This document shows positions 34,361 through 50,834 of a DNA stretch of 64,000 nt, piece by piece (position 1 is the stretch's first letter; every line of letters starts with the position of its first letter). The translations under genes and the position numbers were made by a program. The DNA is taken from NCBI RefSeq assembly GCF_004363095.1, contig NZ_SNYO01000004.1:499905-563904 (forward strand), in the 5' to 3' direction. Under the pieces are notes generated by a model. The model saw nothing but the letters and a program-made list of their open reading frames with translations, made no database searches and was not told where the DNA came from. The stretch is from Actinomycetospora succinea. GTDB taxonomy: Bacteria > Actinomycetota > Actinomycetes > Mycobacteriales > Pseudonocardiaceae.

Positions 34361-35983
34361 GTGGAACCACCGTTGCTGCGCCCGGCCGCGAGCTACGACG
34401 AGCTCTGGCGCCAGGTCGACTTCGCCACTCTGCCGATCCCGGAGCGGTTCAACCTGGGCGTGGCGTTCGCCGACCGGCAGGACCCCGACGCGCGGGCGCT
34501 CACGGTCGTCGAGGTCGACCGGACCTCGCGCGACCACACGTTCGGCGAGGTCACCACGGCGTCGAACCGGCTCGCGAACGCCCTCGCGGCCCTCGGCGTC
34601 GGGCGCGGCGACGTCGTCGGGCTCGTCAGCCCGGCGTCGTTCGAGACCGGCGTCGGCTTCGTCGCGATGTTCCGCATGGGTGCGATCGCGCTGCCCCTGT
34701 CGTCGCTGTTCGGGCCGGACGCCCTGCGCTTCCGCCTGCGGAACGCCGGGGCGAAGGCCGTCGTGACGGCGGCGGCGAACGCGGACCGCGTGCGCGAGGC
34801 CCTCGACGACGGCGGCGAGCAGATCCCGCTGCTGGTGATCGGGAGCCAAGAAATCGGACTGAGCGGCCCGGAGTCGTTCGAGGACGCCCTCGCCGCGGCG
34901 TCGCCGGAGTTCACGCCGGTGGACACGGCGGCCGAGGACCCGGCCTTCCTCATCTACACCTCGGGCACCACCGGCGACCCCAAGGGCGCGCTGCACGCCC
35001 ATCGGATCGTCTACGGGCACCTGCCGGCCTTCGAGGCGGTCTACGAGTTCTTCCCGCAGGCGCACGACGTGATCTGGTCGCCCGCCGACTGGGCGTGGAT
35101 CGCCGGGATCATGGACATCCTCGCGCCCGCCTGGTTCCACGGGCTGCCCGTCGTCGTCGACCGCGAGCCCGCGTTCACCGCGGAGCGCGCGGTGTGGCTG
35201 ATGCGCGAGTTCGGGATCACGCTGACCCTGCTGCCCGCCACCGCACTGCGGGTGATCCGCGCGTCGGGCCTGGAGGGCGGCGGGTTCGCGTTCCGCTCGA
35301 TCTGCTCCGGCGGCGAGGCCCTGGGCGCCGACCTGCTGAAGTGGAGCGAGGAGTTCTTCGGCGCGACCGTGAACGAGGGCTACGGGCAGACCGAGCTCAA
35401 CGCCTGCATCGGCAACTGCGCCTCGGTCTATCCCATTCGCCCCGGCTCGCTGGGCAAGGGGCTGCCGGGCTTCACGCCGGTGGTGCTGGACGAGGACGGC
35501 GAGCCGGTGATCGACACGGTCGGCGAGCTCGCCCTCGACCGGCGGACCCCGTCCACGATGCTCGAGTACTGGCGCAACCCGGAGGCGACCGCCGAGAAGT
35601 ACCGCGGCGAGTGGCTGCTCACCGGCGACCTCGCCCGCCAGGACGCCGACGGCTACGTCTGGTTCGAGTCCCGTAAGGACGACGTCATCAACTCGGCGGG
35701 CTACCGGATCGGGCCCGGCGAGATCGAGCAGAGCCTCGGCGGGCACGACGCCGTCGCGATGGCCGCGGTGGTCGGCGTGCCGGACGAGCGGCGCGGCCAG
35801 GTGCCGAAGGCGTTCGTGGTGCTGAGGCCGGGGGTCACCGCGTCCCCCGAGCTGGCCGGCGAGCTGCGCGCCCACGTCCGGGCACGCCTGGCCGCCCACG
35901 AGGTGCCCGCGCACATCGAGTTCCTCGACGAGCTGCCCCGCACGACCACGGGCAAGATCCTCCGACGGGCGCTGCGGGACTAG
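34361..35983 (+). CDS. Acyl-CoA synthetase (AMP-forming, medium/short-chain type)
   Basis: A 540-residue adenylate-forming ligase. The P-loop is LIYTSGTTGDPKGALHAH, the A5 region is NEGYGQTELNACIGNC, A7 is LLTGDLARQDADGYVWFESRKDD, and the C-terminal catalytic Lys is in TTTGKILRR. It activates a carboxylic acid to an acyl-CoA. Length and sequence resemble acetyl/propionyl or medium-chain acyl-CoA ligases. GTG 34361 follows a 175-bp divergent region from the MHS transporter. Confidence 0.93.
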   Translation: MEPPLLRPAASYDELWRQVDFATLPIPERFNLGVAFADRQDPDARALTVVEVDRTSRDHTFGEVTTASNRLANALAALGVGRGDVVGLVSPASFETGVGFVAMFRMGAIALPLSSLFGPDALRFRLRNAGAKAVVTAAANADRVREALDDGGEQIPLLVIGSQEIGLSGPESFEDALAAASPEFTPVDTAAEDPAFLIYTSGTTGDPKGALHAHRIVYGHLPAFEAVYEFFPQAHDVIWSPADWAWIAGIMDILAPAWFHGLPVVVDREPAFTAERAVWLMREFGITLTLLPATALRVIRASGLEGGGFAFRSICSGGEALGADLLKWSEEFFGATVNEGYGQTELNACIGNCASVYPIRPGSLGKGLPGFTPVVLDEDGEPVIDTVGELALDRRTPSTMLEYWRNPEATAEKYRGEWLLTGDLARQDADGYVWFESRKDDVINSAGYRIGPGEIEQSLGGHDAVAMAAVVGVPDERRGQVPKAFVVLRPGVTASPELAGELRAHVRARLAAHEVPAHIEFLDELPRTTTGKILRRALRD

Positions 35984-36441
35984 GCGGCCACACCCCGCTG
36001 CCCGACCGCGCCGCGCAGGCCGACGCAGCCGACGCACCCCACGCAGTCGACACAGTCGACGCACCCGATGCAGCCCACGCAGCGCGTGCAGTCGACGCAG
36101 GCCAGCGTGGCCACGCACAGCCGCAGCCGCGCCCCGAGCACCGTGAGCAGGCTGCCCAGGATGGCGACGCTGCCGGCCGTGCCGGCGCTGCCGGCCACCG
36201 CGACGCTTCCGGCCGTGGCCGCGCTGCCCGCGACCGCGACGCTGCCGGCCGTCGCGGCGCTGCCCGCCACGGCGATGCTGCCGGCCGTGCCCGCGCTGCG
36301 CGCCACGCCGACGCTGCCGACGGTCGAGGTGCTCCCGGCGACCGCGACGCTGTGGGAGGTGTCGACGCTCGCCGCGACCGCGACGCTGTCGTCCGTGCCG
36401 GTGCTCGCGACGGTGCTCCCGGGGTCCTGGTCCTCGGCCAT
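35980..36441 (-). CDS. Repeat protein: Ser/Ala-rich 12-residue repeats plus Cys-ladder tail
   Basis: A 153-residue protein of unusual make-up, not recognised. From about residue 12 to 95 a 12-residue unit repeats seven times (xSxxTxxSVAVA, with the conserved Ser at 19, 31, 43, 55, 67, 79 and 91). A hydrophobic link (ILGSLLTVLGARLRL) leads to a ladder of nine Cys at exact three-residue spacing (115-139: CVDCTRCVGCIGC and onwards). It ends in VGLRGAVGQRGV. A 12-residue period suits a beta-solenoid; the Cys ladder may continue it or bind metal. Its stop overlaps the acyl-CoA synthetase stop. Confidence 0.75.
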   Translation of the reverse strand: MAEDQDPGSTVASTGTDDSVAVAASVDTSHSVAVAGSTSTVGSVGVARSAGTAGSIAVAGSAATAGSVAVAGSAATAGSVAVAGSAGTAGSVAILGSLLTVLGARLRLCVATLACVDCTRCVGCIGCVDCVDCVGCVGCVGLRGAVGQRGVAA

Positions 36442-36481
36442 GGTCGAGAGGTTGCCCGGGCCGCGGGACGCCGTCCAGCGT

Positions 36482-37687
36482 TCAGCGGCGGCGCATCCGG
36501 AGCACCGACCCGACGCCGCCGACCACCACCATCACGGCGACGACGGCGCACAGGCCGACGGCCACCGAGGCCAGGCCCCAGAGGTCGACCGCGACGCCCG
36601 CGAGCAGGCTCGCGACGGCGGCGGCCAGGTAGCAGTACAGGTAGATCGCGGCGAGGGTGCCGGCGTGCGTGCCCTCCGGGCTCCGGTCGAGCAGGGTGCG
36701 CATGGCCCCGGCGAACGCGACGCCGAAGCCGGCGCCGGCCACGACCGCCGCGACGAGGTAGGCGGCGAAGCTCCCGACGGCGATCGCCGCGATGTAGCCC
36801 CCGATCCCGACGACCAGGCCGGCCGCCCCGCCGGCGAGCGCCCGCGCGGCGCTCAGCCGGTTGGCGGCGAGCCCGGCCACCGGCCCGACGAGGTGGTAGA
36901 CGGCGACCGCCAGGGCGCCGCTGAGCGGGCCGGCGAAGCCGGTACTGCCGTCGAGCACCGACACCACCAGCGACGGGGCCAGCGCCTGGGTGAAGCCACC
37001 GAGGACGTAGGTCCCCGCGACCAGCAGGCACACCGGCGGGAACACCCGCCGCGCCGTCGGCGGGACCCGCACGACCGGGCGCAGCGACCGCACCGCGCCG
37101 GGTGCCCGCACGACCGTCTCCGGCAGGAACACCACGGCCACCGCGGCGGCGGTGAGCACCGACGCCGTCACCACGAACGACAGGACCGGGGCGCTCGCGG
37201 GCACGACCTGGAGCGCGATCCCCGAGGTCAGCGCGCCGAGGGCGATGCCGCCGGGCGGCGCCCCGCTGGTCACCGCGCCGGCGAGCCCGGGGCGCGAGGG
37301 CGGGACCAGGTCGACGACGAAGGCCCCGAGCGCGCTGAGCGCGAGCCCCACCGAGAGCCCCTGCACCGCGCGCCCGACGAGCAGCGGCGCCGCGGAGTCC
37401 ACGGTCGCGAGCACCACCGAGCCCGCCGCGCCCGCGAGCAGCGCCGGCACGGCCACCCGGCGGCGTCCGAGGTGGTCGGACAGGGCGCCGCAGCACAGCA
37501 GGGCGGCGAGCAGCGGCAGGATGTAGATCGCGAACGCGCCGGTGAGCACGACCGTCGAGAGGCCGTAGGTCTGCTGGTAGACGACGTAGAGCGGCGCCGG
37601 GACGCCGGCCGCGGCGCACGCGGCCACGAACGCGACCGACGCCGTGGTGAAGGTCGTCGCGGAGCGGCGGGATCGGGTGTGCAGCAC
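36482..37687 (-). CDS. MFS transporter (drug-efflux type)
   Basis: A 401-residue, 12-span major facilitator protein. It has GALSDHLGRRRVAVPALL (loop 2-3 motif), GRAVQGLSVGLALSALGAFVVDL, and a long run of Ala/Val/Gly-rich helices. The N-terminus has no signal. GTG 37687 is used. The upstream gap holds a MarR-like operator. Likely exports small hydrophobic compounds; substrate not known. Confidence 0.9.
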   Translation of the reverse strand: MLHTRSRRSATTFTTASVAFVAACAAAGVPAPLYVVYQQTYGLSTVVLTGAFAIYILPLLAALLCCGALSDHLGRRRVAVPALLAGAAGSVVLATVDSAAPLLVGRAVQGLSVGLALSALGAFVVDLVPPSRPGLAGAVTSGAPPGGIALGALTSGIALQVVPASAPVLSFVVTASVLTAAAVAVVFLPETVVRAPGAVRSLRPVVRVPPTARRVFPPVCLLVAGTYVLGGFTQALAPSLVVSVLDGSTGFAGPLSGALAVAVYHLVGPVAGLAANRLSAARALAGGAAGLVVGIGGYIAAIAVGSFAAYLVAAVVAGAGFGVAFAGAMRTLLDRSPEGTHAGTLAAIYLYCYLAAAVASLLAGVAVDLWGLASVAVGLCAVVAVMVVVGGVGSVLRMRRR

Positions 37688-37728
37688 CGTCAGACCACCC
37701 CGGCGCGCAGCATCACCGGGTCAGGGTA

Positions 37729-37744
37729 GTTGGCCCGGGGCAAC
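37729..37744. promoter_or_regulatory. Inverted repeat upstream of MFS gene, similar to the MarR operator at 30874
   Basis: GTTGGCCC-GGGGCAAC is a 16-bp near-perfect inverted repeat (one mismatched pair) 42 bp before the MFS start. It shares the GTTG-CC/GG-CAAC pattern of the palindrome upstream of the MarR-ClC operon, but is 1 bp longer. Confidence 0.45.
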
Positions 37745-37781
37745 GACCGTGAGGACGGACGTCACCACCGGGGAGCGGAGA

Positions 37782-37964
37782 TCAGGGCAGCGAGATCATC
37801 TGGGCGCCGGCGGCGACGAGGTGGTCGTGGTGGGCCCGGCCGTGGTGTCCGCAGAACGCGAGCTCGCCACCGCGGGGGAGGATCGCGAGGGACAGGGCGC
37901 GCACCCCGCATCGGTCGCAGTCCAGCCGGGCAGCCTGCTCGGGTGCCGTGGCGATGGCGGTCAT
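37782..37964 (-). CDS. DUF7455-like small zinc-ribbon protein
   Basis: A 60-residue protein matching the small actinobacterial family with CDRCGVRALSLAILPRGGELAFCGHHGRAHHDHL. Cys-Cys and Cys-His pairs could bind one zinc. An excellent GAGGAGG site lies 9 nt before ATG 37964. Function unknown; it is commonly found near sigma factor or ribosome-related genes. Confidence 0.85.
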   Translation of the reverse strand: MTAIATAPEQAARLDCDRCGVRALSLAILPRGGELAFCGHHGRAHHDHLVAAGAQMISLP

Positions 37965-47859: not shown

Positions 47860-48477
47860 ATGTACGTACCGGCGCACTTCGAGCCCGACGACGAGGCGGT
47901 CCACCGGCTGCTCTCCGAGCACGGGGCCGTCGAGCTGATCACCGCCACCACCGACGGGCTCATGGCCACGACCCTGCCGATGAGCTACGACCGGGAGGCC
48001 GGTGTCCTGCGCGGGCACCTCGCGCGGCAGAACGACCAGTGGCGTGCCGAGGTGCTCGGCGACGCCCTGGTCATCGCGCGCGGGCCGGACTCCTACATCT
48101 CGCCGTCCTGGTACGCGTCGAAGGCCGAGCACGGCAAGGTCGTCCCGACCTGGAACTACCTCACCGTGCACGTCCACGGCCCGCTGACCGTCCACGACGA
48201 CTCGGGCTGGCTCGCCGCCCAGGTCGCGGCGCTGACCGACCACCACGAGGCCGGACGGGCGCACCCCTGGAGCGTCGCCGACGCGCCCGAGCGGTTCGTC
48301 GCCGGACAGCTGCGCGCGATCGTCGGCGTCGAGGTGCGCGTCGACCGCCTCGAGGCCAAGTTCAAGCTGAGCCAGAACCGGCCGAGCGCGGACATCGACG
48401 GCGTCGTCGCGGGCCTGACGTCCGTGGGCGATCACGTCGGCGCGGCGCTCGTGAGCGCACACCGGGGAGTGAAGTAG
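47860..48477 (+). CDS. FMN-binding PaiB-like protein
   Basis: A 205-residue FMN-binding negative transcriptional regulator-type (PaiB) protein: MYVPAHFEPDDEAVHRLLSEHGAVELIT at the N-terminus, SYISPSWYASKAEHGKVVPTWNYLTVHVHG in the flavin fold, and LEAKFKLSQNRPSADIDGVVAGL at the C-terminus. Members have a split-barrel flavin fold; the regulator label comes from Bacillus PaiB, and an oxidoreductase role is possible. ATG 47860 is the chosen start. Confidence 0.92.
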   Translation: MYVPAHFEPDDEAVHRLLSEHGAVELITATTDGLMATTLPMSYDREAGVLRGHLARQNDQWRAEVLGDALVIARGPDSYISPSWYASKAEHGKVVPTWNYLTVHVHGPLTVHDDSGWLAAQVAALTDHHEAGRAHPWSVADAPERFVAGQLRAIVGVEVRVDRLEAKFKLSQNRPSADIDGVVAGLTSVGDHVGAALVSAHRGVK

Positions 48478-48511
48478 CTCGAGGCTCGCTCTCGAGGTCT
48501 GTCCCGGCCGA

Positions 48512-50756
48512 TCAGAACGGCGGTGGGTCGTTCGGGTCGTGGACAGCGGGGACGGTGGCGGTCCTGCTGCTCGTGGTGGTCGTGCGCGCCTTGCTGGTGG
48601 TGGTGGCGCCGGTGGTGCGGCGCAGGAACTGGTGTCGCCACTGGGCGTCCGCGGCGGCGTCGGCGTCGGCGTCGGCCTCGTTGTAGGGGTGGGTGCGCCA
48701 GCCGTCGTCGGGCAGGGGTCGGGGCCGGTGCGCGGGGCGGGGTTCGGGGAGCTTGTCGAGGATCTTCTTCGGGGTGGTGTGGAGTCGTTGTCCGGCGCGG
48801 GTGCGGATGGCGAAGTGGCCGGGGGCGGGTTGCTGGATCTGCCAGTGGGCGTGGTGTTTGGCGCGGTGGTGGTGTGTGTCGAGCACGCCGAGGTTCCAGT
48901 GCGCCGAGGGGCCGTGGTGGGCCCAGTCGTGGGTGTGGTCGAGCTCGGCGCGGTGGGCGGGGCGGTGGCAGCAGGGGATGATGCAGCACCGGTCGGCGGA
49001 CCCGGGTCCAGCGTTCGGTCTCGGCGCTGAGGCGGCGCCGCAGCTGGTCGGCGAGGCTCGCACGGGGCGGGCCCGGCGCGTCGAGCTCTGTGAGGTCGCT
49101 GAGTCGGGTTTGGAGTTCGCGCAGCAGGGCGGTCCAGGTGGGGTGGGCGTCGGGGTCGAGGGCGGCGAGCAGTGTCGTCGGAACCTGGAGTTCGACGATG
49201 GCTCGGTGTTGCCCTGGCCCCCGCGGCTGGTGGTCGCTGCGGGGGCGGGCTGGTCGTCGGCGGGCGAGCAGGACGTGCTGGAGGTGGCCGTCGGGGGTGG
49301 TGAGCACGATGCGCCATTCGCCGTGGTGGGCGGCGGTGAGCAGGGTGCGGGCGTGGTGGGCCAGCACGGTGCCGTAGCCGGGGACGGTGGCGGGGTACTG
49401 GTCGAGTCCGAGCGCGGTGGTCAGGCGTAGGCGCAGTTCGCTGGTGCCGGTGCGGACGCGTCCGGGTCCGGGGTCGGGCCCGTCGATCTCGGGCGGGAAC
49501 TCCGGCACCGGCGGCTCAACGGGTTCGTCGGGCTCCTCCGGCTGGTCGGGGTCGGATAGCTCGGGGTCGGGTAGACCGGGTTCGGGTAGACCGGGCAGGT
49601 CGAGTACGCCCTGACCGGCTGACTCGCCCTCGGCGTGCTCACCAGCCTCGGCGTCGTCAACAGCGGCGGTGCCCTCACCAGCGGCGGGGCCCTCGTCGTG
49701 CGGATCTCCATCGCCGGGTTGTCCGGCGTCGTCGGGCGTCTCGCGCCGGTCGTCGGTCGGTGCCCCGCCAGCCGGCCCGTTGTCGGGTCCGCGGTCGTCG
49801 GGTCCGTCATCGCGCGGCCCGTCGGGGCCGTCGCCGTCCGGCTCGTCGCCGTCCGGCTCGTCGCCGTCCGGCTCGTCGCCGTCCGGCTCGTCACCGTCCG
49901 GCTCGTCACCGGGTTCGTCGTCGGGTTCGGGTGGTTGGCCGGCGGCGTGGTATTCGGCGGCGAGGATGCAGATGATCTGGTGGTCGGTGAGTCCGGCGCT
50001 GGAGCCGTCGAGCAGGCGGGCGGCGACCTCGCCGCGCAGGTCCCCGACCGGGAGCCGCACCCCGAGCGCGCGGACCGCGGCGGCGATCGCGTCGCAGCGG
50101 TCGCGCATGGCCAGCCCGCGCGGCGCGGTGGTGTCGCAGACCGCGAAGGTGGCGGTGCCCGAGGGGTTCGCGGTCAGCGTCACCCGCAGGTTCTTCGCCG
50201 CGCGGGCTTCGCGGCGCGCGGCCCAGTCGGGGTCAATCGCGGTGGCGATCTGCTCGATGCGCCGGATCAGCTCCCCGACCGGCAACGACGGCGCCTCGGG
50301 CAGCAGGACCTGGGTGACGTGGCGGGCGTGGTCGTCGCACAGGTCGCGGGTCCACTCGCACAGCCGGGTGGCCTTGGGTTCGTCGAGCCAGCCGTCCCAG
50401 AGCGCCTCACCGACCGCGGGCAGGCGGGCGGCGAGGTCGTCGGCGAGGTCGAGCTTGCGGCACGCCATCGACCGCGACCAGCCGAGGGCGACCGCGACCT
50501 CGTCACCGGAGTACTCGTCGAGTACCTGGCGGCGGTCGCGGCGCCCGTGCTGGGCGCGCCCGAGGTGGTGCATCGCGTCCAGCAACCGCGCGGTGCCGTG
50601 GTTGGTCAGCCGCGCGCACGCCCGCACGTAGGCGGCCAGCTCGTCTCCGGTCAACGTGTCCGGGGAGAGGTCGTCGAGGACCGCGAGCAGCTCCGGCCCC
50701 GCCGACAGGGCATCCAGGTCGGCCACCGGGCCGCCTCGCACACCCTGTTCGCTCAT
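48512..50756 (-). pseudogene. DUF222 / HNH endonuclease-domain gene, frameshifted before the HNH site
   Basis: The N-terminal DUF222 part reads in one frame from ATG 50756 (MSEQGV) to about 49010 (RRRLSAETERWT). The expected HNH end reads in another frame down to 48512 (DRCCIIPCCHRPAHRAELDHTHDWAHHG, then SAHWNLGVLDTHHHRAKHHAHW). The switch falls in the GC run near 49001-49009 and needs a net one-base shift. Either a disabled gene or a sequencing error. A long acidic Asp/Glu/Pro/Gly linker lies in the middle (about 49600-49920). Start region is near identical to the copy at 25804. Confidence 0.85.
49831..49920 (-). repeat. 15-bp tandem repeat encoding Asp-Glu-Pro-Asp-Gly
   Basis: Five near-perfect copies of TCGCCGTCCGGCTCG plus one degenerate copy, in phase with the reading frame of the second DUF222/HNH gene. 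On the coding strand each unit encodes the pentapeptide DEPDG. A slippage-prone tract in the acidic linker. Confidence 0.85.
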
Positions 50757-50797
50757 GTGTTCGAATGTAGCCACGACCCCCGACAGCGACGGCCCCG
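50748..50797 (-). promoter_or_regulatory. Conserved 5-prime block with SOS-box-like sequence (copy 2)
   Basis: Same block as at 25796-25845: start codon, TCGAAC-ACAT-GAGCGA (50764-50749) and a shared GTCGGGGGTCG stretch upstream of it. Divergence between copies is low here compared with the protein-coding parts, which suggests functional constraint or recent common origin of the 5-prime region. Confidence 0.5.
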
Positions 50798-50834
50798 AGA
50801 ACACCCGCCGCTACATCACAGAACGGTCACGAAC

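Follow-up and report, generated by a model that had tools for sequence, protein, structure and literature searches.

A conserved actinobacterial repeat protein with one unbroken three-residue phase and a cysteine ladder, predicted to fold in part as a tight beta-solenoid

Introduction

The antifreeze (thermal hysteresis) protein of the beetle Tenebrio molitor (PDB 1EZG / 1L1I) is built on a 12-residue repeat in which, according to the portion of PMC8038014 that treats these positions, every third residue points inward. Regular spacing of Cys is in turn a feature of heterocycloanthracin precursors, which carry Cys-Xaa-Xaa repeats and whose insertions and deletions suggest a Cys-Xaa-Xaa unit, as stated in the sections of PMC2674419 used here, and of PHROG 15341, a phage family of no assigned function with long Cys-x-x ladders. 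Here we describe a gene that encodes a protein with features of these systems, and that lies on a 64,000-nucleotide stretch (hereafter the window) of the genome of Actinomycetospora succinea (contig NZ_SNYO01000004.1). An earlier reading of the window from its sequence alone had drawn attention to this gene as encoding a two-part repeat protein, Ser/Ala units followed by a Cys ladder. The parts of the gene and of its product are as follows:

35980..36441, minus strand: the gene, encoding the two-part repeat protein of 153 amino acids; ATG start, stop included (homologues and codon constraint)
36151..36405, minus strand: Ser/Ala part, predicted solenoid, residues 13-97, unit SVAVAGSxATAG, Ser every 6 residues (periodicity, model strands, 1EZG match)
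36118..36150, minus strand: junction, residues 98-108, three-residue phase maintained (alignment, periodicity)
36025..36117, minus strand: Cys ladder, residues 109-139, with C109 and then C115 to C139 every third residue (periodicity, invariant Cys, model)
35983..36024, minus strand: conserved end, residues 140-153, GLRGAVGQRGV in most (alignments)

Results

A single phase runs through both parts of the protein

The exact spacings reported by the sequence-only reading, namely a Ser at every 12th residue (positions 19, 31, 43, 55, 67, 79 and 91) and a run of nine Cys spaced three residues apart between 115 and 139, were both verified, although each turned out to be part of a finer or longer pattern. 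Ser in fact returns at every 6th residue between 13 and 97, 15 times without a gap, and the self-identity over residues 19-97 reaches 73% at a lag of 12 and 48% at a lag of 6, while C109 is a tenth Cys in phase with the ladder. Runs as long as those observed (9 for Cys every 3 residues, 8 for Ser every 12 and 15 for Ser every 6) were seen in 0 of 100,000 shuffled versions of the protein sequence. The layout of a Ser part followed by a Cys part also stood, but the parts are not independent, because one three-residue phase, occupied by S, V, S and T first and by C afterwards, is common to both and can be followed from S19 to V151. When phases were counted over the last 120 residues of 80 homologous loci, near-duplicate loci included, 848 of 976 Ser lay in the ladder phase and 1415 of 1480 Gly outside it. 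The corresponding count for Cys (928 of 933 in phase) is in part a product of construction, since a Cys pattern had been used to find the loci and the ladder to define the phase; the Ser and Gly counts are free of this effect. Five ladder Cys are invariant in a 34-row alignment and eight in a 74-row alignment. The homologous loci carry 9 to 15 Cys within the last 110 residues, and the ladders in genomes G043 and G021 and in the window differ by whole triplets. The three-residue phase is unbroken and conserved.

The open reading frame is a real gene with homologues in several actinobacterial genera

The coding part occupies positions 35983-36441 of the minus strand and the stop codon positions 35980-35982. 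The region is repetitive DNA, and the open reading frame (ORF) could in principle be a spurious frame over a nine-base repeat, particularly since repeats elsewhere produce look-alike ladders. We noticed such apparent simple repeats mimicking Cys ladders in four minus-strand frames (L023:1462-1968, L027:1480-1656, L165:1369-1950 and L167:700-1893, in reverse-complement coordinates), which are a warning for searches by Cys-ladder pattern. Furthermore, between the window and A. lutea, the nearest named relative at 89% identity in the sense frame, one antisense frame sharing the wobble position is 88% identical, so that this pair alone cannot choose the strand. Against a spurious frame, however, stand homologues in several genera that are 50-89% identical with eight Cys invariant, the distribution of changes relative to the nearest relative over the three codon positions (10/6/41), and the fact that the antisense frame is interrupted by a stop in 33 of 79 loci, compared to 0 of 79 for the sense frame, a zero due to construction as open segments were taken. 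Values of dN/dS ranged from 0.15 to 0.67 over 11 comparisons involving the window gene, and from 0.08 to 0.62 over 12 close pairs. The sequence-only reading had stated that the gene would not be real if homologues and codon-level constraint were missing; both were found. A spurious frame is hardly credible on these data, and the ORF is a real gene, whose sense strand is decided by the conserved Cys.

A protein search returned at least 29 homologues at E up to 0.01 among the best 8000 candidates scored. Of 61 genomes searched, its own included, 29 matched at E 0.01 or better; only matches at E below 1e-30 were counted as members, which leaves 16 genomes with the gene, 14 of them among the 18 Actinomycetospora genomes. 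Two of the look-alike frames named above, L023 and L027, belong to the matches that this threshold excludes. With a family profile at E 1e-15, it was present in at least 14 of 200 genomes of the taxonomic family, at least 25 of 397 of the order and at least 8 of 396 of the phylum, counts that each include its own genome and are lower bounds, as part of the candidates was scored. Scanning GTDB contigs by the Cys pattern yielded 103 relatives, 80 of which were retained, in Actinomycetospora, Pseudonocardia, Mycobacterium, Mycolicibacterium, Gordonia, Desertimonas and other Acidimicrobiia, and unplaced actinobacterial metagenome-assembled genomes (MAGs); single MAG contigs labelled Acidobacteria and Dormiibacterota were also among those retained, and may be misbinned. 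In a 75-row tree, with 19 of its 70 inner branches open, rows of the same genus tended to group, Mycobacterium and Pseudonocardia each appeared in several places, and P. autotrophica was placed among Actinomycetospora. Two homologues (P0016 and P0029) carry the Cys ladder after N-terminal stretches of seemingly unrelated proteins, which may reflect fusion or a miscalled start. No title or abstract on the protein family was found in a search of open-licence papers, with most subscription papers outside it. The protein is conserved and, within reach of our searches, undescribed.

Predicted fold

The best structure model places strands every 6 residues in the Ser part and matches 1EZG over residues 15-96; its predicted local distance difference test (pLDDT) score is about 80-85 in the Cys ladder, and confidence is low from residue 141 on. 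If a constant, ungapped offset to 1EZG is assumed, the residues of the conserved phase in the Ser part are the inward positions of the beetle protein. Weighing against this picture, only one of five models was confident, and the 1EZG match stops at residue 96, before the Cys ladder begins; because of the latter point we lowered our estimate for a tight right-handed beta-solenoid with Cys inward from moderately probable to evenly balanced. The suggestion of a stacked beta structure in the sequence-only reading is supported by the best model and its match, with one of five models confident, while the "Cys-lined edge" proposed along with it gives way to a Cys-lined core as the likelier arrangement, since the Ser-part phase is inward in 1EZG and since, in the phage ladders described below, Cys is fixed and the other positions vary. 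We infer that the Cys lie inside the solenoid. A lag analysis of the outward residues of the ladder gave no signal for its coil length. Because the beetle consensus is absent, the protein is, by its predicted fold, a tight beta-solenoid variant outside the beetle antifreeze family. A left-handed hexapeptide helix, which the hexads GSVAVA/GSAATA might bring to mind, was rejected, as the phase is three throughout and both the model and its best match are of the 12-residue type. PDB matches 9FGQ, 9E5C and 8ZXL were set aside because their alignments looked compositional.

Cys ladders in phages

Our search also called as relatives 13 viral contigs with Cys ladders, one of which (L139) may be a simple repeat, with ladder runs of up to 52 triplets. 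All nine phage-type ladder proteins scanned matched PHROG 15341. Across 23 distinct ladders, the Cys position does not vary, as the pattern used to find them required, and the other two positions are variable and often polar or charged, as would be expected if Cys faced inward and its neighbours outward. A profile built from 20 phage-type ladders (7 viral-contig rows and 13 metagenome proteins) found 1EZG at E 3.6e-6, a match between two Cys-rich sequences of strong composition bias. The window ladder itself matched PHROG 15341 at E 1.5e-4 over residues 109-140, that is, over 32 residues only, and the window protein also matched PHROG 5073 (tail fibre) and PHROG 1658 at E 0.009. A tblastn search of phage and plasmid records gave no match, a result that is uninformative given the low-complexity filter of BLAST.

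On one 127-kb viral contig, ten ladder ORFs of 9-27 triplets lie within 10 kb (L144:1-10192; one is cut by the end of the stretch), and eight of these share a similar N-terminal region. In a phage-type protein (L137:4881-5684), the C-terminal part behind the 52-triplet ladder has matches to PHROG 20532 and 7964. Among the genus genomes counted as non-carriers, one has a weak match to the phage ladder family (G014:C13:128952-129224, E 5e-4); the search that gave it also returned the apparent simple repeats L165 and L167.

Neighbourhood and upstream region

ORFs of 81 loci (the 80 retained and the window) were compared all against all. The gene itself aside, the most widespread neighbour family was near 19 of 81 loci only, which agrees with the absence of an obvious partner noted from the sequence alone. 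Eight neighbour families, each near at least 4 loci, span at least two of the three main genera; where such a family lies within 700 bases of the gene in seven or eight loci, these loci are all from Mycobacterium. In the window, the last 4 bases of the gene overlap the 3' end of an acyl-CoA ligase ORF (34361-35983, plus strand). Such a ligase is within 700 bases in 6 of 81 loci (Actinomycetospora and Pseudonocardia) and within the analysed flanks in 10; as about 3 and about 15 cases would be expected by chance, on our estimate from the 86 AMP-binding matches in the genome itself, there is no excess, and the ligase was rejected as a partner. An operon with the major facilitator superfamily (MFS) gene was likewise discarded, as a comparison of 15 gene-bearing loci with eight window genes found the order RNase H, DUF7455, MFS, repeat-protein gene, acyl-CoA ligase kept in one genome only (G011). 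The shifting location of the repeat-protein gene is however not special, because the MFS gene's own 15 loci in the genus also seldom keep the ligase, which is alongside in the A. succinea genome and G011 only. A selection of ten neighbours, made by eye in 14 loci, comprises three hydrolases, two signalling proteins, a DUF1579 protein, an acyl-CoA ligase, a short-chain dehydrogenase, an enoyl-CoA hydratase and an iron-sulfur protein.

Upstream of the gene we noted one further feature:

36449..36477, minus strand: putative promoter of the gene itself, TGGACG-17-CAACCT, separated by 7 bases from the ATG (leaderless) (upstream sequence pattern)

TGGAC followed at a similar distance by a second box, CANNNT (nine cases) or GANNNT (one case), was found in 10 of 14 upstream stretches, whereas 2000 shuffles gave 0.002 on average and never more than 1; both pattern and stretches had been picked by eye after inspection of the upstream sequences. 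A sigma-70 consensus scan did not find this putative promoter, which we regard as a candidate and a lead only. A role as a defence gene was set aside after a PADLOC scan of 3 proteins gave no defence-gene match, and so was an RNA element, as Rfam gave no match in 35500-37800. Elsewhere in the window, a 15-base tandem repeat of 5.5 copies (49829-49911) encodes an acidic GDEPD stretch in ORF 48432-50804 (minus strand).

Discussion

Our proposal is that the whole protein might be one continuous right-handed beta-solenoid of the Tenebrio antifreeze type, with about 12 residues per coil, whose inward position, every third residue, would be taken by Ser, Val, Ser and Thr in the first two-thirds and by Cys in the last third, so that the core would shift from hydroxyl to thiol along the protein. 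Because no hydrophobic stretch is visible by eye at the N-terminus, we take the protein to be cytosolic and its Cys to be reduced. Thiols stacked in the core would be suited to soft metals, and might bind ions such as Cu(I) or Zn, while the Ser part could serve as a rod or as a folding seed. Taken as a whole, from solenoid to metal-binding ladder, this reading has in our estimate somewhat less than an even chance of being correct; metal binding, on its own, is a tentative assignment, even though we consider it the likeliest single role, with a structural disulfide rod next.

Such a rod would share the same solenoid but have its ladder Cys oxidised, with disulfides joining Cys spaced 6 residues apart, and would work as a rigid staple. 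The ladder does offer Cys pairs at that spacing, and the beetle protein has disulfides of this kind, for example C2-C8, in the part of PMC8038014 that lists them. However, the Cys number is even in 38 of 80 homologous loci, so complete internal pairing is not favoured and does not appear to have been selected, an export signal is not visible by eye, and the ladder has twice as many Cys per 12 residues as the beetle repeat; we consider the rod a doubtful alternative. Collagen requires Gly at every third residue, and a collagen-like triple helix would accommodate the Pfam Collagen match (PF01391, E 0.001) of the window protein, weak matches to collagen-like adhesin models, and P0010, which alone among ten homologues scanned exceeds the Collagen cut-off (28.7 vs 27.2 bits). 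The window protein nevertheless stays under that cut-off at 19.2 bits, and Gly fills 21 of the 44 places of its phase, with Ala in 11, so that this reading is very unlikely. We regard an ice-binding protein as equally improbable, for although the nearest fold match is an antifreeze protein (1EZG), the beetle TCT consensus is absent and the positions beside the inward residue are mostly Val/Ala and Gly/Ala.

A chemically different possibility is that the gene encodes the precursor of a ribosomally synthesized and post-translationally modified peptide (RiPP), its Cys being converted to thiazoles as in heterocycloanthracin by maturation genes located elsewhere. RiPP precursors distant from their operon are known, as described in the relevant part of PMC2674419, and the A. 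succinea genome has one YcaO gene. The heterocycloanthracin model TIGR03601 was weakly matched by 3 of 9 homologues scanned (best 15.1 bits, cut-off 35), and the thiocillin model NF033482 by three homologues (best 13.2, cut-off 25), but neither by the window protein. In our search for maturation genes, limited to YcaO, this gene was missing in 5 of the 14 Actinomycetospora carriers (including one genome that is only 59% complete) and in 6 of 9 further carriers, and present in 4 of 4 non-carriers of the genus; because YcaO does not track the gene, YcaO-type maturation is unlikely, and we consider the RiPP reading improbable overall.

To return to the solenoid with a thiol core, a broader and frankly speculative extension, to which we attach a low probability, is that bacteria and phages share a so far undescribed design, a minimal all-Cys-core solenoid with four thiols per coil, forming a one-dimensional metal-thiolate or persulfide column. 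The window protein would then represent this design in bacteria, its Ser-core rod nucleating a thiol tube, and tube length would be set by Cys triplets, from 9 to over 50. If the proposed thiol-core solenoid is correct, a conserved but unannotated bacterial protein has the beetle-type tight 12-residue solenoid, whose core can then consist of Cys throughout. Such a finding would also provide a simple scaffold, tunable in length, for metal clusters or thiol chemistry, as well as a first hypothesis for PHROG 15341.

Compared with known systems, pentapeptide-repeat and other parallel beta-helix proteins have longer coils, and a Pfam scan at E up to 1 gave the window protein no match to these families. 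The Tenebrio antifreeze protein is like the window protein in its 12-residue repeat and, in the predicted model and for the Ser part only, in pointing every third residue inward, although 1EZG was not found at E up to 1 by the window family's own profile against PDB. The two differ in that the beetle consensus is TCTxSxNCxxAx and the window unit SVAVAGSxATAG, with no Cys in the repeat part, and in that the window protein is bacterial, shows no export signal by eye, and would have a core of Ser/Val/Thr and then of Cys only. Heterocycloanthracin precursors resemble the window ladder in their Cys-Xaa-Xaa repeats, whereas the window protein scores nothing with their model and its family shows no dependence on YcaO. 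With the phage proteins of PHROG 15341, finally, it has long Cys-x-x ladders in common, even though the viral proteins examined have no Ser/Ala part and carry ladders longer than its own.
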